From contig JANQPF010000021.1 in assembly GCA_028285415.1 (NCBI GenBank), positions 62,001 to 126,000 of the forward strand: 64,000 nt of DNA, read 5' to 3'. Position 1 is the stretch's first letter, and each line of letters opens with the position of its first letter. The notes under the pieces are model-generated. The model did no database searches, was not told the DNA's origin, and was given only the letters and a program-made list of their open reading frames with translations. Shown one piece after another: positions 43,549 to 54,143 of the stretch. Position numbers and translations under genes: made by a program. Source of the DNA: Pseudomonadales bacterium. Its GTDB lineage: Bacteria; Pseudomonadota; Gammaproteobacteria; Pseudomonadales; Azotimanducaceae.

Positions 43549-45102
43549 TCAGCTGGTAGTGAAGACCTGCAGAGATGCGCAAATTGCCAGAATGAGGAGT
43601 GCCATGAAACCAAGACCGCGTACGCTCGGCTGCCAGGCGGGATAACGCCAGCTGGCGGTTGCGGCGGATCCTCCCAGCAACGGATTCAGGCTCAGCGTGG
43701 TACCCGCTGCGACGACAAAGCCAATCACGTTCCACCACAGCCAGGACACGTCCTGCGCCAGCACGGCCACCGCCAGGTTGGCACAGAGACCCGCGAAAAA
43801 ACCGGTCAGCGCGGCTGCCTGGCGAATGCCGTTCAGCAACACGGCGGTGCCGAAGAGCGCAAGCAGGGGACCGTTTGCCATGGAACCCACCTTGTTGATG
43901 GCTTCAAGGACGGTGGGCGCGATGGCCTCAACCTGAAACGACAGCGCCAGGCTGAAAACTCCCCAGCCAAGCGTTGCCAGACGTGACGTCCACAGCAATT
44001 GCCCGCCCGACAAATCCGTGAACGGTTTGACGAAGTCCTCCACTGTCGCGGCCGACAGGCTGTTGATGGCGGAGTCGATCGAGGACATCGCCGCAGCCAT
44101 CAGCCCCACCATCACGAGGCCAACGAATCCCGGGGCGAAGTTCTCCAGCACATAGAGCGGGAACACGAGGTTGTAGTTCGGTTCGCCAGCCTGATTTTCC
44201 GGAAGCGCTGCGACGAAGTCGGCGTGACCCGCGGCAAACGCTGCGAGCCCGAGACCCAGCAGACAGTAGCTCAGCACCAATGGGAAGCGGAAGCAGCCGT
44301 TGAAGAACAGCACCCGCTGTACGGCCCGGTCGTCTTTTGCTGCAAGTACGCGCTGCGCCTGGCTCTGGTCGCAGCCGTAGTAGGCCATGTACAGGAAAAA
44401 GCCGCCGATGAGCATCGGCCAGAAGCCGTAGTCGTTGCCGGTCACGCCCCAGTCGTTGACGAGCGTCTCGGTGCGGGCCTCGAAGAATGCGGACCACGAA
44501 ACGACGTCGGCAATCAGGAAGAGGCTCACGAGCACCGTCACGCTCAGCAGCGCAAGCTGGACGACGTCGCTGACGACCACCGCGCGCAGCCCGCCGAGGA
44601 GATCGTAGGCAATGGTGATGACCATGAGGAGCGCCACGGCCGCGGTGAAGGAGATGTCCAGAAGCAGCGCGAGCACAATTGCGACACCGTAAATCGTGAC
44701 GCCCGTGGCGACGCCGCGGAAGAGCAGGAAAGACGCGCTCGCAACGCGACGGCTGGCGACGCCGAGACGGTCCTCCAGTAGGGCATAAATGGAGGTGGCT
44801 CCGGTCTGGCGTGCCGGAATCATGAGGAAAATGAGCGCCGCCATGGCGAGCGGCACTGCGAGCTCGTACTGCAGCCACAGGAGGCCGCCGCCGCTGACAA
44901 AACCGACGAACGCCGGTGCACCCATGAGCGAGTTCGTCGAGCACTGGGTCGCGATGGTGGACGCTGCGAGGCTTGCGCTGCTCATGTTGTTGCCGGCAAG
45001 AAAGTAATCCTGCGCATGGCGCTGGCTGCGGCCGATGAAGGCAGCCAGCAAGAGCATGCCAAACAGATAGAGGGCCATCACACCCCAGTCGAGCCACGTC
45101 AT
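43549..45102 (-). CDS. sodium:solute symporter (SSS family)
   Basis: A 517-residue membrane protein with about 13 hydrophobic helices, starting DWGVMALYLFGMLLLAAFIG, with the SSS hallmark QDYFLAGNNMSSASLAASTIATQCS and GGLRAVVVSDVVQ. It takes up a small solute (sugar, amino acid or organic acid) with sodium. It is divergent from the glucosylglycerate-phosphorylase-like gene, so import of glucosylglycerate or a related glucoside is a reasonable inference, not proved. Confidence 0.88.
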   Translation of the reverse strand: MTWLDWGVMALYLFGMLLLAAFIGRSQRHAQDYFLAGNNMSSASLAASTIATQCSTNSLMGAPAFVGFVSGGGLLWLQYELAVPLAMAALIFLMIPARQTGATSIYALLEDRLGVASRRVASASFLLFRGVATGVTIYGVAIVLALLLDISFTAAVALLMVITIAYDLLGGLRAVVVSDVVQLALLSVTVLVSLFLIADVVSWSAFFEARTETLVNDWGVTGNDYGFWPMLIGGFFLYMAYYGCDQSQAQRVLAAKDDRAVQRVLFFNGCFRFPLVLSYCLLGLGLAAFAAGHADFVAALPENQAGEPNYNLVFPLYVLENFAPGFVGLVMVGLMAAAMSSIDSAINSLSAATVEDFVKPFTDLSGGQLLWTSRLATLGWGVFSLALSFQVEAIAPTVLEAINKVGSMANGPLLALFGTAVLLNGIRQAAALTGFFAGLCANLAVAVLAQDVSWLWWNVIGFVVAAGTTLSLNPLLGGSAATASWRYPAWQPSVRGLGFMALLILAICASLQVFTTS

Positions 45103-45128
45103 GAAGACGGCACCTGGAAGGTGAGCAC

Positions 45129-45165
45129 GCTTTTTGCATTATCCATATATGCATACGCAAAAAGC
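45129..45165. promoter_or_regulatory. 9-bp inverted repeat in the transporter/phosphorylase divergent region
   Basis: GCTTTTTGC (45129-45137) and GCAAAAAGC (45157-45165) form a perfect inverted repeat with a 19-base AT-rich spacer that contains the palindrome TATGCATA. The site sits midway between the divergent starts at 45102 and 45193 and is a good candidate for a shared operator. Confidence 0.5.
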
Positions 45166-45192
45166 CTGGTATGGTGTCGCCGCCGTTTAGTC

Positions 45193-46959
45193 ATGAACCA
45201 CACGTTGAGCTCGGAAACCACACGACAGAACGGACGCGCACGGCGTCTGCCAAGGAACCAGCAGGAATATGAGCTCCTGCAGTTGCTGACGAACCTTTAC
45301 GGCGATGGCATGGGTGATGAGCTTGCCAGCCGGCTTCTGCAGATTGCGGAGAACGTCAGCGTGCCGCCGTCGCGACCGCTGACGTTGTCCGCCGAGCAGG
45401 TGCTTCTGATCACTTACGGTGACACCGTCAGCGAGTCCGGTCGGCCGCCCCTCGCGACGCTGAAAACATTTGCGGACGCTCACCTCGAAACGGCGTTCAG
45501 CGGCATCCACGTGCTGCCGTTTTACCCCTATACCTCCGACGATGGCTTCGCAGTCTGCGACTACGGTGCCGTGCGCGAGGACCTCGGCACGTGGGCGGAC
45601 GTGACCGATCTTGCCGAGCGCTTCGACCTGATGTTCGATCTTGTCATCAATCACTGCTCGCGCGAGCACCTGTGGTTCGCCGACTTCATCAGCGGCCGCG
45701 TCCCCGGTAAAGATTTTTTTATCGAGGTGCCCGCTGATACCGAACTTGATGCGGTGGTGCGCCCGCGCAACACGCCGCTCCTGAGCCCGGTGCAGACTTA
45801 TGGCGGGACGCGCCATGTCTGGACGACGTTCAGCGACGATCAGGTAGATCTCAACTTTGCCAATCCGGACGTGCTTGGCGCGTTCGTCGAGATCCTCTTC
45901 GACTACGTTGAGCGCGGCGCACGTTACATCCGCCTCGACGCCATTGCCTTTCTCTGGAAGCGGGTCGGCACCTCCTGCATGAGCCTGCCGGAGACGCATA
46001 TGGTGGTCAAAATCATGCGGCTGCTGCTCGACATCAGCGGCGCTGATGCGCGGCTCCTGACCGAAACCAACGTCCCCCATGCGGAAAACGTCAGCTACTT
46101 CGGTGCACGGGACGAGGCGCATATGGTGTATCAGTTCAGTCTCGCGCCGCTGCTGCTCTACGCCTATCTCTTCCAGGACGGCAGCTACCTGCAGGATTGG
46201 GCACGGACGCTGGACGCGCCGCCCGCGGGCTGCGCGTATCTCAATTTCATCGCCTCGCACGACGGGATCGGGCTGAGGCCCCTCGAAGGCTTGGTGCCGG
46301 AGGCGGATGTGGCGTCGCTGATCGAGCTTGTGCATGAGCGCGGTGGTTTCGTCAGCATGCGCAGCACGGCGGACGGCACGGAGCGCGCTTACGAGCTCAA
46401 CATTTCGCTCTTTTCCGCGTTCGGCGGGGATGCAGCGGACGTGCCGGCGTTCATCGGTGCGCATCAGCTCCTCTGCGCCTTCCAGGGTGTGCCGGCCATT
46501 TACCTGAACGCGCTGCTCGGGCAGGCCAACGATCTCGGTGAAGTGGAACACACCGGCCGTACGCGATCGATCAACCGAGGCAAGCTCGAGCTGGCGGAGG
46601 TCCTCGAGCGTCTGCAGGATCCCACGCTGCCGGAACGGCAGGTATTTGAGGGTTTGACTCACAGCCTGGCTTTGCGCAGACAGCAGAGTGCGTTCAGTCC
46701 CGAGGCGCGGCAGGAGGTGCTGTCCACACCCGCCTCTCAGCTTGCGCTCCTGCGCGCAAGCGAAAGCCAGCGCATTCTGGTCATCGCCTCTTTTCTGCCG
46801 ACGGCGCAGCGTGTGTCGATAGAGGAGCTCGTCCCGGGACACGTCTTTGACGGCGCGCGCTGCGACATTCTGACGGGCGCCTGGCACGATGCTGCCGAGC
46901 CGCTGCATCTCGCGCCGTACCAGGTGGTCTGGCTGGACTTAGACCGCCGCCAGGATTGA
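45193..46959 (+). CDS. GH13 glucosylglycerate phosphorylase-like enzyme (sucrose-phosphorylase family)
   Basis: A 588-residue GH13 subfamily-18-type enzyme. Catalytic elements: nucleophile Asp in IRLDAIAFLWK, acid/base Glu in LLTETNVPH, and transition-state Asp in ASHDGIGLRP; SGIHVLPFYPYTSDDGF is the sucrose-phosphorylase signature. The TETNVPHAEN variant and the neighbouring GpgS and phosphatase genes favour glucosylglycerate as substrate, giving glucose 1-phosphate and glycerate. The ATG at 45193 is used. Its last 21 bases overlap the end of the convergent synthase gene. Confidence 0.85.
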   Translation: MNHTLSSETTRQNGRARRLPRNQQEYELLQLLTNLYGDGMGDELASRLLQIAENVSVPPSRPLTLSAEQVLLITYGDTVSESGRPPLATLKTFADAHLETAFSGIHVLPFYPYTSDDGFAVCDYGAVREDLGTWADVTDLAERFDLMFDLVINHCSREHLWFADFISGRVPGKDFFIEVPADTELDAVVRPRNTPLLSPVQTYGGTRHVWTTFSDDQVDLNFANPDVLGAFVEILFDYVERGARYIRLDAIAFLWKRVGTSCMSLPETHMVVKIMRLLLDISGADARLLTETNVPHAENVSYFGARDEAHMVYQFSLAPLLLYAYLFQDGSYLQDWARTLDAPPAGCAYLNFIASHDGIGLRPLEGLVPEADVASLIELVHERGGFVSMRSTADGTERAYELNISLFSAFGGDAADVPAFIGAHQLLCAFQGVPAIYLNALLGQANDLGEVEHTGRTRSINRGKLELAEVLERLQDPTLPERQVFEGLTHSLALRRQQSAFSPEARQEVLSTPASQLALLRASESQRILVIASFLPTAQRVSIEELVPGHVFDGARCDILTGAWHDAAEPLHLAPYQVVWLDLDRRQD

Positions 46960-48186
46960 CGGCTGCGGGCCGAACGCGTCGCTGTCGGCTGCGACGGCAG
47001 CTTTGATGTCGGCGAAGACGTCCGGGTAGACGCTCGTGACGCGGTTCCAGGACGGGATGAACGGCGTCTCCTCACCGCTTTCCAGGAACGATTCGCCGGC
47101 CTTGAGAATGTTGCTTGCAAAAAGCTCCACGGCCCGCTCCTCCGCGTCGCGGTCCAGCGACAGGCCGTTCATTTCAGCGTCGTTGGCGTAGGACTCGATG
47201 AGGTCTAGTGCGATCCGCAGGTACGTGGCTTTGATGGTACGCACGGCGCCGGCGTCGAACACCGTGCCGTAGGTAGCGAGCTTCTTGAAGAGCGACTTGG
47301 CGATATCCATGCTCATGCGCGACAGTCCTCGGCTGACGTCGTCCGCCGACAGCGGCTGGTGCTTGTGATCGTAGTTGTCCGCAACCTCAACCTGACACAG
47401 CCGGTTCGTTGAATAGTTGCGGTAGACTTCCGAGAGCACGCCGATCTCCAGTCCCCAGTCGGACGGTATCCGCAGGTCTTTGATGACGTCCATCTGCATC
47501 GAAAACTCGCCGGCCAGGGGATAGCGGAAGCTGTCTAGATATTCGAGATATGGATGCTCGCCGTGCACCTTTTTCATGGTGCGTATGAGCGGAGAGACCA
47601 GGAGGCGGCTGACCCTGCCGTTCAGCTTGCCTTCCGCGACGCGTGCATAGAAACCTTTGCAGAACTCGTAGTTGAATCGCGGGTGCGCCACCGGATAGAA
47701 GAGGCGTGCAAGCATGCCGCGGTCGTAGGTGGTGATGTCGCAGTCGTGCAGCGCCACGGCGTGAGCTTCGCCGACGGCCTGAACGTAGCCAAAGCAGTAC
47801 CAGACGTTGCAGCCTTTGCCGAGCTCACCCGGCGCCAGACTGAGCGCCTCGAGTTGTTCCTGAATCTGCCGCATGCGTGGGCCGTCGTTCCAGATGACGG
47901 TATGTTTCTGCGGAAGACGTGAGAAATAGCTGAGCGCGTGGCGGTACTGCGCTTCGTCCGCCCGGTCGAGACCGATGACGATTTCACCGACGTAACGTGC
48001 CTTGGACAACTCGTCCACGATGTGGGCGAGCGCAGGATGCTCGAGTTCGGAGTAAAGACACGGTAACACCAGGGTCATCGGCCGCTGTTGAGCGTACGTC
48101 TCGAGTTCCGCCTCCAGATCTTCGAGCGGCCGGTTGGCCAGGTTGTGCAGGGTGGTGATGATGCCGTTCTGAAAAAAGTCGCTCAT
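46939..48186 (-). CDS. gpgS: glucosyl-3-phosphoglycerate synthase (GT81)
   Basis: A 415-residue GT-A fold glycosyltransferase. The N-terminal LVLPCLYSELEHPAL, the metal motif HDCDITTYD near residue 147 and the NYEFCKGFYARV and PLAGEFSM segments match the GpgS family, which joins NDP-glucose to 3-phosphoglycerate. It runs in an operon 15 bases after the HAD phosphatase that would remove the phosphate. It overlaps the convergent phosphorylase gene tail to tail. Confidence 0.85.
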   Translation of the reverse strand: MSDFFQNGIITTLHNLANRPLEDLEAELETYAQQRPMTLVLPCLYSELEHPALAHIVDELSKARYVGEIVIGLDRADEAQYRHALSYFSRLPQKHTVIWNDGPRMRQIQEQLEALSLAPGELGKGCNVWYCFGYVQAVGEAHAVALHDCDITTYDRGMLARLFYPVAHPRFNYEFCKGFYARVAEGKLNGRVSRLLVSPLIRTMKKVHGEHPYLEYLDSFRYPLAGEFSMQMDVIKDLRIPSDWGLEIGVLSEVYRNYSTNRLCQVEVADNYDHKHQPLSADDVSRGLSRMSMDIAKSLFKKLATYGTVFDAGAVRTIKATYLRIALDLIESYANDAEMNGLSLDRDAEERAVELFASNILKAGESFLESGEETPFIPSWNRVTSVYPDVFADIKAAVAADSDAFGPQPSILAAV

Positions 48187-48201: not shown

Positions 48202-49017
48202 TCAGCTCGCTGCGCACCGGGTCAAGGCCGCGTTGACCGCCGCATCCCAGCCGCGCGGTCCGGCTGCGCGGGCCTGAACCGCCGGGATTTCTGGAATGCT
48301 CAGGTAGTCGCCGTTACGTCCAGGGCAGATCACACAAACGTCGGCAACTCTGAATAGCGGTAGATCGTTGGGACTGTCGCCGCAGGCAACGGTGTGCTTC
48401 GCGTGTCCCTGCATGTAGCGGTACACGCGCCGGACGCGCTTCGCGGCGCTGCCTTTGTCAGTCTGCGGCATGACATGTCGAAAACGTCCGCCTTCGACGA
48501 TCTTGAGAGACAGATCGGCAAGGGCGAGGGTGAACTCGTCGAGGCGGGTGGCGCTGTCCTGCCAGACGATGGGTTCGCTCACCAGACGGTCTTTGGCCTG
48601 ATGGGCACCCAGCGTTGTGAGCCCGGTGGTGTTCGCAACGTCCAGCGCGCTCATGTCCGCAAATCCGTGGAACGCGAAACCGTGCCGTTTGCGCAGCGCC
48701 GCCAGCAGTCTGCAGATTTCTGCATAACCCGGTTCGTGCAGCTCGATGGCGCGCCCGAACTTCTGGACGAATGAGCCCGCCGGGGTGAGATCCTGCGGCC
48801 AGGCAATGCCGGCGCCGTTTTCGAAGATCCATGGGGTGGGCACGTCGATGAAGGCAGCGAGCGCCGCCAGCTCCGGCAGCGTTTTACTCGACACCGGAAC
48901 CACCGCAACGTTGCGCGCCTGCAAGGCGTTGATCGCCTCCGCAGCGGTTTCGAGGTCGTAGCCGTCGTCGAGCAACGTGCCGTCTAAGTCGGTGAAGACC
49001 AGCGCGGCGGGTGTCAT
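48202..49017 (-). CDS. HAD phosphatase, mannosyl/glucosyl-3-phosphoglycerate phosphatase family
   Basis: A 271-residue HAD-IIB phosphatase. Motif I FTDLDGTLL (residues 8-16), motif II SSKT (VPVSSKTLPEL), and motifs III/IV in TDKGSAAKRV and ACGDSPNDLPLF. The ENGAGI stretch is typical of mannosyl-3-phosphoglycerate phosphatases. With GpgS downstream it would finish glucosylglycerate synthesis. The ATG at 49017 is chosen as it starts the HAD fold; no strong ribosome site is seen, and a start farther up (frame to 49071) cannot be excluded. Confidence 0.82.
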   Translation of the reverse strand: MTPAALVFTDLDGTLLDDGYDLETAAEAINALQARNVAVVPVSSKTLPELAALAAFIDVPTPWIFENGAGIAWPQDLTPAGSFVQKFGRAIELHEPGYAEICRLLAALRKRHGFAFHGFADMSALDVANTTGLTTLGAHQAKDRLVSEPIVWQDSATRLDEFTLALADLSLKIVEGGRFRHVMPQTDKGSAAKRVRRVYRYMQGHAKHTVACGDSPNDLPLFRVADVCVICPGRNGDYLSIPEIPAVQARAAGPRGWDAAVNAALTRCAAS

Positions 49018-49065
49018 GAGCGGGGGTCGATTTGATCTGACATGAGGTGCGCCTCCCATTGCGCC

Positions 49066-49081
49066 TGGCACAGCTGATGCA
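49066..49081 (+). promoter_or_regulatory. sigma-54 promoter facing the urease operon
   Basis: TGGCAC-N5-ATGCA has the GG-N10-GC spacing of -24/-12 promoters and one mismatch to TGGCAC-N5-TTGCA. The start would be near 49092, about 140 bases upstream of ureD. Confidence 0.6.
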
Positions 49082-49098
49082 GTGCTTTCTCTGAATAA

Positions 49099-49115
49099 TG
49101 CAAAGAGTCTGCCAG
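49099..49115 (-). promoter_or_regulatory. sigma-54 promoter facing the glucosylglycerate synthesis operon
   Basis: On the minus strand CTGGCAG-N5-TTGCA matches TGGCAC-N5-TTGCA at all but one position, with GG-N10-GC spacing. The start would be near 49088, about 70 bases upstream of the phosphatase ATG. It faces the plus-strand promoter at 49066. Confidence 0.6.
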
Positions 49116-49146
49116 GCGCTGCGTATGCCGCGCTGGTGCGGGTGGT

Positions 49147-49206
49147 GCGTCGCTATGACGCGATTCACGCCCCAAAATGAGGCTCGCGCGCACCGCTTTG
49201 GTGCGC
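49147..49206. promoter_or_regulatory. NtrC-box-like enhancer pair
   Basis: GCGCACC-N5-GGTGCGC (49188-49206) contains a perfect GCACC-N5-GGTGC core, the NtrC consensus. A weaker dyad of the same geometry, GCGTC-N5-GACGC (49147-49161), is centred 43 bases away. Centres are about 110 and 67 bases upstream of the minus-strand sigma-54 start. Confidence 0.55.
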
Positions 49207-49230: not shown

Positions 49231-50067
49231 ATGGCCGTGGATGCATCCCGGGTAAGACACCGTACGCCTGGCTGGCAGGCGGCGCTGACGCTGCGCTATG
49301 CCGAGCTGGGCGGGCGTACGCTGCTGCGTCACGAGCACGTTGGCCCGCTGCGGGTGCAGCGGCCGTTCTTTCCGGAAGACGGTGTCAATCACACCTATCT
49401 CCTGCATCCGCCCGGTGGCCTGGTCGGTGATGACGAGCTCCGCATTCAAGCCGATGTCGAAGCAGGGGCACATAGCCTCATCACGACGCCGGGCGCCACC
49501 AAGGCGTATCGCAACGTGTGCTCGGGGGCGCGGGTTACGCAGCGTTTCAACGTGCAGGGTGCGCTCGAGTTCCTGCCGCAGGAGACAATCCTCTTTGATG
49601 GCGCGCGCCTGCGTTCGCACACGCACTTCGAGTTGGGGCAGGCCGCCCGGTTCGTGAGCTGGGAAACGCTTTGTCTCGGCAAGGTCGCCGACGAACAGCG
49701 CTTCACGACGGGGTATGCCGACTTCCGTACGACCATTGCGGGACCGTCCGGTCTCCTCTACGACGACCGTCTTGTTCTGGAAGGCGGATCCGCCTTGTTG
49801 CGCGAGCCCTGGGGTCTGGGCGGCAGCCCCGTCTCTGGCGTGATGCTTGCATATCCTGCGGATGAACAGCTCCTTGGCATTGCGCGTGAGCGGCTGCGCG
49901 TTGATGCCGAAGGATTTGCGGCAACGCTGCTGGACCAACTGCTGGTAGTGCGTGCGCTAGTGCGTCAGAGCCAGGCGGCGTTGAGTGCCTTTCGTGAAGT
50001 GTGGTCTGCGATCCGGCCGAGCCTGCTCGGCCCGACACCCTGCGCACCGCGCATCTGGTCGACTTGA
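49231..50067 (+). CDS. ureD: urease accessory protein UreD
   Basis: A 278-residue UreD/UreH. Characteristic motifs: [50 protein letters not shown] and [14 protein letters not shown]. It scaffolds UreF and UreG on the apo-urease and lines the nickel-delivery tunnel. The ATG at 49231 has GAGAGG upstream; an in-frame ATG at 49177 lies before the NtrC-like hairpin and has no ribosome site. First gene of the urease operon. Confidence 0.93.
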
Positions 50068-50089: not shown

Positions 50090-50722
50090 GTGCAATTGAC
50101 ACCGCGAGAAAAAGACAAGCTGTTGCTCTTCACGGCGGCGCTGGTTGCAGAGCAGCGTTTGGCGCGCGGGGTGAAGCTGAATTATCCGGAGGCGGTTGCC
50201 CTCATTTCCAACGCCATCGTGGAAGGTGCACGGGATGGGCGTCGCGTCGCAGATCTCATGCAATACGGCACGACGCTCCTGAGCCACGACCAGGTGATGG
50301 ACGGCGTGGCGGAAATGATGGATGAGATTCAGGTTGAGGCCACCTTTCCCGACGGCACGAAGCTCGTCACCGTGCACAACCCCATCCCGCATACGCCGGC
50401 GCGCGTGCCTGGTGAGATTCTGCCGGAGCGCGGTGACATAGAGATCAACGCCGGCTTGGACACGCTGCGGGTGACCGTCGTCAACACGGGTGATCGCCCC
50501 ATACAGGTGGGCTCTCACTATCACTTCTATGAAACAAATCCGGCGCTCGACTTTCCACGCCCCGACACGCAGGGCATGCGCCTCAACATCCCCGCCGGGA
50601 CGGCGGTCCGGTTCGAGCCGGGACAGAGCCGCGACGTCGAGCTGGTTGCTTTTGCCGGAGACCGCCTGGCGTTCGGCTTCCGCGGCGAGGTCATGGGCGC
50701 AATGGACGGAGCAACCTCATGA
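50090..50722 (+). CDS. ureAB: fused urease gamma-beta subunit (UreA-UreB)
   Basis: A 210-residue fusion. Residues 1-100 are the gamma subunit ([40 protein letters not shown]); residues about 108-210 are the beta subunit ([42 protein letters not shown]). Such fusions are known from Helicobacter and scattered proteobacteria and actinobacteria; most have separate genes. GTG start with AGGGGGGA upstream. It overlaps ureC by four bases. Confidence 0.93.
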
Positions 50723-52422
50723 CCCGGATGACCCGCGCGGCGTACGCAGAGATGTTTGGTCCTACGACCGGTGATCGCGTGCGCCTGGGGGATACCAACC
50801 TCGTCATCGAAGTCGAAAAAGACTACACGCGCTACGGCGACGAGGTGAAGTTTGGCGGTGGCAAAGTCATTCGCGACGGCATGGGTCAGAGTCAGCGCCC
50901 TGCGGACGAGGTGATGGACTGTGTCATCACCAACGCGTTGATCCTCGACCATTGGGGCATCGTCAAAGCCGACGTGGGTATCAAAAACGGCCGCGTTGCC
51001 GGGATCGGCAAGGCCGGGAATCCGGATACGCAGGCGGGCGTCGACATTGTCATTGGACCGGGCACCGAAGCCATTGCCGGTGAGGGGTGCATATTGACCG
51101 CGGGTGGCATCGATGCACACATTCACTTCATCTGTCCCCAGCAGGTTGATGAGGCGCTGATGTCGGGAGTGACCACCATGCTGGGCGGTGGCACCGGCCC
51201 GGCCACGGGCACCAACGCAACGACCTGCACGCCCGGGCCCTGGAACATCCACCAGATGTATCGCGCGGCCGACGATTTACCGATGAACGTCGGCTTCCTC
51301 GGCAAAGGTAACGCCAGCCTGCCGCTCGCGCTCGATGAGCAGCTTGTCGCGGGCGCAATGGGCCTGAAGCTTCACGAGGACTGGGGGACAACCCCGGCTG
51401 CCATCGATAACTGTCTGAACGTCGCTGAACGCTTCGACGTGCAGGTGGCCATTCACACGGATACGCTCAACGAGTCCGGCTTCGTCGAAGATACCATCGC
51501 CGCCTTCAAAGGACGGACGATTCACACCTACCATACGGAAGGCGCGGGCGGCGGACATGCGCCGGACATCATCAAAGCCTGCGGTTCCCCCAACGTGCTG
51601 CCGTCGAGCACCAATCCGACGCGACCGTACACGGTGAATACGATTGATGAGCACCTCGACATGCTCATGGTGTGTCATCACCTCGATCCGGGCATTGCCG
51701 AAGACGTTGCGTTCGCCGAGTCGCGCATCCGGCGGGAGACCATTGCCGCGGAGGACATTCTTCACGATCTTGGCGCGTTCTCGATGATTGCGAGCGATTC
51801 GCAGGCCATGGGACGGGTGGGTGAGGTGGTATGCCGCACGTGGCAGACGGCGCACAAAATGAAAGCCCAGCGCGGTCCGCTCGCGCCGGACACGGAACGC
51901 AACGACAACTTCCGCGCGAAACGGTATATCGCCAAATACACCATCAATCCGGCGTTGACCCACGGCATTGCGCACGAAGTGGGATCGGTGGAAGTGGGCA
52001 AGCTCGCGGACCTTGTCCTCTGGCAACCGCGCTTTTTTGCCACCAAACCCAATCTGATCATCAAAGGCGGCTTCATCGTAGCAGCTGCCATGGGCGATCC
52101 GAACGCATCCATTCCGACACCGCAGCCCGTTCACTATCGCAATATGTTCGGTGCAATGGGGGGTGCGCGGAACGCAACGTGTGTCAGCTTCGTCTCCCAG
52201 GCTGCGTTGGACGACGGTCTGGGCGAGCGCCTGCAGCTGAAGCACCGGCTGGTTGCAGTCAGCGGCTGCCGCGACGTGCAGAAGGGTGACATGGTGCTGA
52301 ATGGTTATGAGCCGGTCATGGAAGTGGATCCCGAAACCTACGAAGTGCGCTGTGATGGTGAGCTTCTGACCTGCGAGCCGGCGGCTGAGCTACCGCTGGC
52401 GCAGCGGTACTTCCTGTTCTGA
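50719..52422 (+). CDS. ureC: urease alpha subunit
   Basis: A 567-residue catalytic subunit hydrolysing urea to ammonia and carbamate. All active-site parts are present: nickel His in DAHIHFI, the lysine to be carbamylated in GLKLHEDWG, His in AIHTDTLNE and [10 protein letters not shown], flap Cys-His in MVCHHLDPG, and nickel Asp in [11 protein letters not shown]. Length is normal. ATGA overlap with ureAB. Confidence 0.97.
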
Positions 52423-52427
52423 CCGCA

Positions 52428-52871
52428 ATGCTGGAGCTGACGGAAAAACTGAACGACGCTGACAAGCATGTCGACGGCGTGCTCTGTCTCCCTTACGAGG
52501 TGCGGCAGAAGAGCCGTTTTCGCGCCCGGCTGGAGGACGGTACGGAAGTGGGTGTAATCATCGAGCGGGGCTCGGTGCTGCGTGGTGGGGATACGCTGAC
52601 CGGCCCTGCGGGTCGCCGAATTCGCGTTCGCGCGGCGGAAGAAGCGGTTACAACGGTATCGTCCAACGACGTTCGCCAGCTCGCCAGTGGTGCGTATCAC
52701 CTCGGCAACCGCCATGTTCCGCTGCAGATTGGCAACGGCTGGGTGCGGTACCTGCGCGACCATGTGCTCGACGACATGTGCAGGCAGCTCGGATTGGAAG
52801 TCACCTGCGAGGTAGCCTGCTTCGAGCCGGAATCCGGCGCTTACGGGCATCACGGGCACCCGCATGAGTGA
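52428..52871 (+). CDS. ureE: urease accessory protein UreE (nickel chaperone)
   Basis: A 147-residue metallochaperone. The conserved YHLGNRHVPLQI motif near residue 90 carries the dimer-interface nickel His, and the C-terminus is His-rich (GHHGHPHE), a nickel-storage tail. N-terminal LPYEVRQKSRFRARLEDG matches UreE. It begins five bases after ureC and overlaps ureF by eight. Confidence 0.93.
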   Translation: MLELTEKLNDADKHVDGVLCLPYEVRQKSRFRARLEDGTEVGVIIERGSVLRGGDTLTGPAGRRIRVRAAEEAVTTVSSNDVRQLASGAYHLGNRHVPLQIGNGWVRYLRDHVLDDMCRQLGLEVTCEVACFEPESGAYGHHGHPHE

Positions 52872-53526
52872 GCTTTCGACCTGGCGTTTGTGGCAGTTGA
52901 TCAGCCCTGCGCTGCCGGTCGGTGCGTACGCCTATTCGGGTGGTCTCGAAGCGGCCGTGACAAAAGGGATTGTCTGCGATGCCGCCAGCTGCGCGACGTG
53001 GCTCGAAGGGCTCATGGCACAGAACATGACTCACATCGACCTGCCGGTATACCTGCGCCTGTACGATGCCTGGCAGGCCGGCAGGTTGGACGTGGTCGAT
53101 CAATGGACACGGCAGTTACAGGCCTTGCGCGAGACCCATGAGCTCCTGGCTGAGGACCGGCACATGGGCAGAGCGCTGCAGCGGCTGCTCGTGGATCTGC
53201 GGATTGCGGGTGCCGGGGGCCCTGTGCAGCCGAGTTTTACAACCCTGTACGCGCTTGCCTGCGTGCGCTGGCACGTTGAGTGCAGTGCAGGCGCCCGCGG
53301 TCTGGTCTGGTCGTGGCTCGAGAACCAGGTGGCTGCAGCCATCAAGCTCGTACCGTTGGGGCAGACCGACGGTCAACGCCTGCTGGGCGAGATGTTGCCG
53401 ATGGCCGAGGCAGCCGTCACCCGGGCGGTGTCTTTGCAAGACGAAGACCTCGGTCGGTCGCTGCCGGGCCTTGCCATCTTGAGCGCCCGGCACGAGGACC
53501 AGTACAGCCGTCTGTTTCGCAGTTAG
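52864..53526 (+). CDS. ureF: urease accessory protein UreF
   Basis: A 220-residue all-helical protein with [21 protein letters not shown] at the start, the hallmark of UreF, which acts with UreD and UreG in nickel insertion and gates UreG GTPase. ATG at 52864 inside the end of ureE. UreG starts 11 bases after its stop. Confidence 0.94.
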
Positions 53527-53537
53527 GAGAGATCATC

Positions 53538-54143
53538 ATGACAAAGCAAGCCCTTCGCGTGGGGATCGGTGGCCCGGTAGGATCCGGCAAGACGGCCCTG
53601 ACCCTGGCGCTGTGTCGCGCGCTGCGAGAGCAATACAGCATTGCGGTCGTGACCAACGACATCTATACCCAGGAGGATGCTCAGTTCCTCACCCGCCACG
53701 ATGCGCTGCCGTCGGAGCGAATCCGCGGCGTCGAAACGGGCGGCTGTCCTCACACTGCCATTCGGGAAGACGCGTCGATGAATCTGACGGCCATTGCCGA
53801 GCTGCAGGATCTGCACGGATCACTTGATGTGATTTTTGTGGAAAGCGGAGGTGACAACCTGAGCGCAACTTTCAGCCCGGAGCTGTCGGACCTCACCCTG
53901 TACGTCATCGACGTTTCCGCGGGTGACAAGATCCCGCGCAAGGGCGGACCCGGCATTACCCGCTCCGATCTTCTGATCATCAACAAGATTGATCTTGCCC
54001 CCCTGGTTGGCGCATCTCTGGACGTCATGTCCCGGGATGCCCGGCAGATGCGCGGCGATAAGCCGTTCGTATTCAGTAACCTCAAGGATCAAACCGGTCT
54101 CCCGGACATCGTCTCGTTCGTGACCCGCGAAGGCATGTTGTAG
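53538..54143 (+). CDS. ureG: urease accessory GTPase UreG
   Basis: A 201-residue SIMIBI-class GTPase. P-loop [11 protein letters not shown] (residues 10-20), metal motif CPH in [13 protein letters not shown] near residue 70, G3 ESGGDNL, and NKID (IINKIDLA) near residue 148. It hands nickel to the UreDF-urease complex on GTP hydrolysis. The ATG at 53538 has AGGAGA upstream. Last gene of the operon. Confidence 0.96.

Follow-up and report, generated by a model that had tools for sequence, protein, structure and literature searches.

The 213-bp region between the glucosylglycerate synthesis genes gpgP-gpgS and the urease operon, located in a 64-kb window (the whole stretch of DNA that was analysed, 64,000 nucleotides), very probably harbors an NtrC-activated sigma-54 promoter that drives gpgP-gpgS under nitrogen shortage, and the urease operon possibly uses a sigma-54 site on the opposite strand of the same region. 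On the minus strand, the candidate -24/-12 promoter of gpgP-gpgS reads TGGCAG-ACTCT-TTGCA at positions 49099..49114 and retains the GG-N10-GC core of TGGCACG-N4-TTGC; its single mismatch to the TGGCAC-N5-TTGCW form of the consensus (PMC3224663) is the TGGCAG, in place of TGGCAC, of the -24 element. Measured from the -12 element, transcription is predicted to start near position 49088, leaving a leader of about 71 bases. A pattern search also located an NtrC-type enhancer dyad, GCACCGCTTTGGTGC, at 49190..49204 (no strand), which matches GCACC-N5-GGTGC exactly and whose arms extend to 7 bp (GCGCACC/GGTGCGC, 49188-49206). The center of this dyad, at 49197, lies at -109 from the predicted gpg start and at about +105 from the predicted urease start. 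The latter, near 49092, is set by a putative plus-strand sigma-54 promoter that faces urease, TGGCAC-AGCTG-ATGCA at 49066..49081, which likewise keeps GG-N10-GC and has one mismatch (ATGC for TTGC). Both sites, their spacing and mismatch counts, and the 7-bp arms of the dyad had been described in the initial annotation and were confirmed here; the minus-strand site does start at 49099, but it ends at 49114 and not at 49115. A second dyad, GCGTC-N5-GACGC at 49147..49161 (no strand), is indeed centered 43 bp from the main one as had been described; however, 4 of its 10 arm positions depart from GCACC-N5-GGTGC, and its proposed identity as an NtrC site is doubtful. Dyad pairs 29-44 bp apart are present in several relatives.

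The genes on the gpg side were assigned by profile searches. The minus-strand gene gpgP (48202..49017) encodes a member of the HAD-IIB mannosyl-/glucosyl-3-phosphoglycerate phosphatase family (TIGR01486, 214.6 bits, cut-off 164.75), with a probable start at ATG 49017 and a possible alternative in-frame ATG at 49059. Following it on the same strand is gpgS (46939..48186), of the glucosyl-3-phosphoglycerate synthase family; the GpgS family is the best profile match of this protein (NF040724, 347.9 bits, E 6.8e-104), with a score short of the model's cut-off of 700. Judged by the family membership of both proteins, gpgP-gpgS would constitute a glucosylglycerate synthesis operon. Convergent with these genes is a plus-strand gene for a GH13_18-type phosphorylase (45016..46959, true start downstream of 45016), probably a glucosylglycerate phosphorylase, which scored 200.6 bits with the sucrose phosphorylase model TIGR03852, under its cut-off of 334.4. 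A minus-strand sodium:solute symporter gene (43549..45102, profile match) completes what appears as a conserved gpg cassette: the phosphorylase adjoins gpgS in 20/20 other same-genus loci read, and the symporter is beside gpgS in 19 of these 20, the remaining locus ending at a contig end.

On the other side of the intergenic region, the plus strand carries ureD (49231..50067; PF01774, 4.2e-44, run on the open reading frame from 49177), whose ATG at 49231 is preceded by the Shine-Dalgarno-like sequence GAGAGGA. It is followed on the same strand by ureAB, encoding fused urease gamma and beta subunits (50090..50722, start approximate; profile match), by ureC, encoding the alpha subunit (50719..52422; profile match), and by a ureE-ureF-ureG block (52428..54143) in which ureE (52428-52871) was named by its position between ureC and ureF and without a profile, ureF spans 52864-53526, and ureG extends to 54143.

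Both types of element are scarce in this DNA. The dyad GCACCGCTTTGGTGC is the sole exact GCACC-N5-GGTGC in the 64-kb window, and two of the four sigma-54 sites with at most one mismatch in the window fall in this one intergenic region. Genome-wide, 30 exact dyads were found, versus 8 for the reversed pattern. When dyad and promoter were combined into a composite pattern (GCAC-N7-GTGC, a gap of 65-95, and TGGCA-N6-TTGC), exactly two matches were obtained in the 5.97-Mb genome and none with the reversed-pattern control. The gap range was picked after both distances were known and therefore favors these two sites, but this does not explain the absence of other composite matches. The second match precedes a GlnII-type glutamine synthetase gene (E 1.4e-112, under its model's cut-off), which in turn has ntrB and ntrC downstream of it. 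Genes for both the activator and the sigma factor are present in the genome, NtrC scoring 720 bits, above its cut-off, and RpoN 229 bits.

The composite was then counted in 206 genomes of the family, where it gave 82 matches in 71 genomes versus 2 for the reversed pattern. Thirty-two of the 82 matches were read, made up of this genome's own two and 30 further loci, and tblastn placed a glutamine synthetase at 17 of them, an ammonium transporter relative at 3 (30-32% identity, and in one case not downstream of the composite) and urtA at 3. Three of the 32 lie before gpgP, and 6 received no assignment; by coordinates, 8 of all 82 lie before gpgP. Because the matches that were read hold glutamine synthetase, ammonium transporter relatives, urtA and gpgP, the composite, as judged from these gene neighborhoods, marks a nitrogen regulon that includes gpg.

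Conservation upstream of gpgP was examined directly. The gene gpgS occurs in 47/206 family genomes, at 49 places, of which 46 were read (those of G010, G147 and G162, at contig ends, were left out); 42 of the 46 offered 195 bp or more of sequence before gpgP and were counted as usable, and the 4 shorter ones were not counted. A looser architecture, defined as at most two mismatches per element with the dyad 60-145 bp upstream, was found in 22/42 usable family loci, 11 of them in the same genus and 11 in six others, so that 7 of the 11 genera with gpgS are represented. Dinucleotide shuffles gave a mean of 0.08; elsewhere in the same loci, 2/3802 stretches qualified (expected 0.02), as did 2/42 on the reverse strand. 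At the strictest setting, with at most one mismatch in each element, 12/42 loci were positive versus 0/3777 other stretches, and the sense-strand sigma-54 site by itself, with at most one mismatch, was present in 18/42 usable loci where 0.4 was expected. The mismatch thresholds and the distance range were fixed after a first look at some of the sites; the controls used the same thresholds. An exact dyad lies upstream of the sigma-54 site in eight loci, this one included, dyad centers across the family loci fall between -84 and -157 relative to the predicted gpg start, and several gpg loci carry two dyads about 31 bp apart. The initial annotation had named a lack of conservation in relatives as grounds for refutation; for the gpg promoter this check does not refute the proposal, and a chance match is ruled out for it by family conservation together with the genome-wide composite count.

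The architecture is missing from 20/42 usable family loci, including those of same-genus G004, G002, G014, G021, G037 and G022. In G036, in one of the two loci of G177 and in G178, a sigma-54 site occurs without a dyad of at most two mismatches at the right place, the G036 locus offering only 198 bp before a contig end cuts it. Outside the family, 1/16 gpg loci showed the architecture, and only at the loosest setting. The distribution, 22/42 within the family and 1/16 elsewhere, therefore argues that the predicted gpg architecture is characteristic of the family, some members of which have lost it or never acquired it. In one locus of another family (L065, G053), gpgP has a pair of NtrC-like dyads, spaced 43 bp apart, ahead of it; they are followed by TGGCACCCATCTTGAA, with a -12 element that lacks GC.

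Altogether, NtrC-sigma-54 control of glucosylglycerate synthesis, as had been proposed from the initial annotation, is well supported by the sequence comparisons, because the composite occurs just twice in the genome and is shared only with the glutamine synthetase gene, because the architecture recurs in 22/42 loci, and because NtrC and RpoN are both encoded. When nitrogen is short, phosphorylated NtrC would bind the dyad at 49190-49204, 109 bp upstream of the gpg start, would loop the DNA, and would open the sigma-54 polymerase parked at 49099-49114; the cell would then make a nitrogen-free osmolyte alongside glutamine synthetase and other nitrogen genes. This layout resembles NtrC-activated promoters of the glnA and glnK-amtB type, in which a TGGCA...TTGC promoter is preceded, at a distance of about 100 bp, by a GC-N11-GC dyad, and the GlnII-type glutamine synthetase gene of this genome has the same composite before it. 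In E. coli glnA, the NtrC sites are near -108 and -140. Unlike in those systems, the target here is osmolyte synthesis and not nitrogen uptake or assimilation, and gpg is a well-supported candidate for a new target of a known kind of promoter.

Glucosylglycerate accumulation has been reported under nitrogen starvation, and the clusters for its synthesis and recycling that have been reviewed contain the same enzyme set as this locus, i.e., gpgS, gpgP and the GH13_18 phosphorylase (PMC11009771, available text). However, words beginning with "regulat" are absent from the available text of that review, which thus names no regulator in those words. A search of the literature by title and abstract start, with most subscription journals outside its coverage, found no NtrC control of gpg, and no factor linking glucosylglycerate accumulation to nitrogen starvation was found in the literature searched. 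A promoter of the NtrC-sigma-54 type that is conserved ahead of gpgP would provide a direct, testable link between the two, in which the regulator expected to induce glutamine synthetase would also turn the cell to a nitrogen-free osmolyte.

The dyad also lies in the predicted leader of ureD; folded within a urease transcript, it would give a stem of 7 bp some 25 bases ahead of ureD. It might accordingly be read as an RNA hairpin, or as the operator of some other regulator, in place of an NtrC site. This is highly improbable: a crude scan found no terminator-like site between the two operons, and relatives without urease at this place keep dyads at a similar distance from their gpg sigma-54 site.

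The initial annotation had gone further and proposed that one enhancer serves both operons, with the plus-strand site as the urease promoter. For that proposal, the site has one mismatch, keeps GG and GC and faces ureD, and among single-strand stretches taken at random from family gpg loci, none longer than 330 bp, 74/7614 contained a match of its quality (about 1%). A crude scan also matched no sigma-70-like promoter in the intergenic region. Moreover, in Pseudomonas stutzeri the urease genes are NtrC-dependent, with a GC-N11-GC binding motif (PMC8443478, available text), and sigma-54 enrichment at urease genes has been described (PMC12316311, in the main text of which the string "glucosyl" is absent). 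The available parts of these two papers, the first on P. stutzeri A1501, describe an arrangement like the present one in that urease has an NtrC dyad and a sigma-54-like site next to it; unlike there, the dyad here lies downstream of the predicted urease start, and the urease promoter would face the gpg promoter.

The comparison with other loci speaks against a shared enhancer. Sixty-one other gpg loci were available, 45 from the family and 16 from other families, some of them shortened by contig ends; in none of the 61 was a urease match found beside gpg, and in none did an opposing sigma-54 site with at most one mismatch within 300 bp complete a face-to-face pair, the opposing site of L144 lying just beyond 300 bp. 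Among the 22 gpg sites, the base at the position that gives ATGC in the plus-strand -12 element is T in 17 and C in 5, and ATGC occurs in none. Upstream of ureD, 36 stretches selected from the urease places were searched, 3 of which gave no ureD match; a sense-strand site with at most one mismatch preceded ureD in 6/32 other ureD loci read, 5 of them in other families. Among genomes with a gpg cassette, the one whose urease is most closely related is G025, of the same genus; it carries gpg and urease on one contig, about 6 kb separating urease from the symporter end of the gpg cassette, and its ureD is preceded by no sigma-54 site of at most two mismatches and by just two weak NtrC-like dyads 30 bp apart. 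A conserved ureD promoter with an upstream NtrC dyad was therefore not what the plus-strand site proved to be, and the arrangement is unique here among the loci read. Neither the identity of the plus-strand site as the urease promoter nor the service of both operons by one enhancer is established by these counts. In the G025 stretch (L124, 4765-9437), urease is divergent from open reading frames that resemble, from their translations, a purine-type permease and a deaminase, with the weak dyads between them.

NtrC control of urease as such is credible in this family, because the composite precedes urtA in five family genomes, and in three of these (G152, G153 and G228) ureC follows at a greater distance. 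Five genomes of the genus g58 contain the composite, with urtA about 1.2 kb on in four of them, the fifth stretch (L210) ending too soon; in G228, of genus g66, it also precedes urtA. These loci count in favor of a shared enhancer here, as do the divergent layouts that recur at gpg loci. The gene galU, whose product makes UDP-glucose, a possible glucosyl donor, is divergent from gpgP in 7 same-genus loci with dyads between the two genes, and in G079 (L150, about 2500-2900) gpgP is divergent from glnK-amtB, again with NtrC-like dyads between. However, these cases are back-to-back and have -12 elements of their own without the standard GC: a sigma-54-like site of the TGGCACGAATCTTGTT type, which varies between genomes, points to galU, and a TGGCACAAATCTTGTA site, seen by eye, faces glnK in G079. 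By analogy, they would offer looser parallels to one enhancer with two operons. In G048, a gene of the phosphomannomutase/phosphoglucomutase family occupies the divergent position to gpgP. Divergent partners thus recur (galU, glnK-amtB and, in this genome, urease), which suggests that on repeated occasions the gpg enhancer came to lie next to genes that answer the same need.

A working urease promoter at the plus-strand site, with the downstream dyad activating both operons and overlapping start regions in competition, is on this evidence a tentative reading that we rate below even. We give even chances to the reading that the gpg promoter alone is real, that urease was moved in by rearrangement and uses another promoter, and that the plus-strand site arose by chance. 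Neither that site nor the gpg-urease adjacency is conserved, in keeping with such a rearrangement, and the symmetry of the two promoters is within chance as well: both -24 elements sit in a 10-bp inverted repeat (GCGCCTGGCA/TGCCAGGCGC), which is unremarkable as a designed feature because arms of at least 10 occurred in 107/3000 random 213-bp stretches of the window. Against it, the chance of a plus-type site in about 213 bp of one strand is only roughly 0.3-0.6% by arithmetic from the observed rates, and the scan for sigma-70-like promoters, though crude, leaves no match for the other promoter that it calls for. The plus-strand site is hence a possible but unproven urease promoter, and among the genomes examined only here would the urease operon, placed against the same enhancer, have such a site to use.

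The predicted urease start near 49092 falls within the 17-bp stretch that separates the two -12 elements, and therefore two open complexes would overlap. Mutual exclusion of the two promoters is thus predicted from geometry only. Since the two complexes could not coexist, a starved cell might switch between osmolyte synthesis and urea hydrolysis from a single NtrC enhancer with two overlapping, face-to-face promoters; we consider such a switch unlikely, and the urease and shared-switch part of the proposal is an attractive hypothesis drawn from a single genome.

Control of the phosphorylase and symporter pair by the same system was also considered and rejected, as 19/21 gaps between the GH13 and symporter genes, that of this window included, contain no sigma-54 site of at most two mismatches; only G006 and G030 have one. 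A one-mismatch NtrC-like dyad is present between the symporter and phosphorylase genes at 45110-45124, with no sigma-54 site there.

The gpgP gene itself changes far more quickly than gpgS. Identity of gpgP was 36-46% across all pairs of six family genomes, and the gpgS of the other five genomes was 67-84% identical to that of this genome. A recent replacement of gpgP here, as the 44% identity to G025 versus 84% for gpgS might imply, was dropped, with gpgP at 36-46% in every pair; because this range holds for all pairs of the six genomes, gpgP evolves fast. A GpgP scan of one genome collection returned a single distant relative. Finally, a minus-strand open reading frame of 9 codons (ATG 49043, preceded by GGAGG) lies within 49017-49059 and shares the sequence TCATGA with the probable start of gpgP, an overlap that would allow translational coupling.
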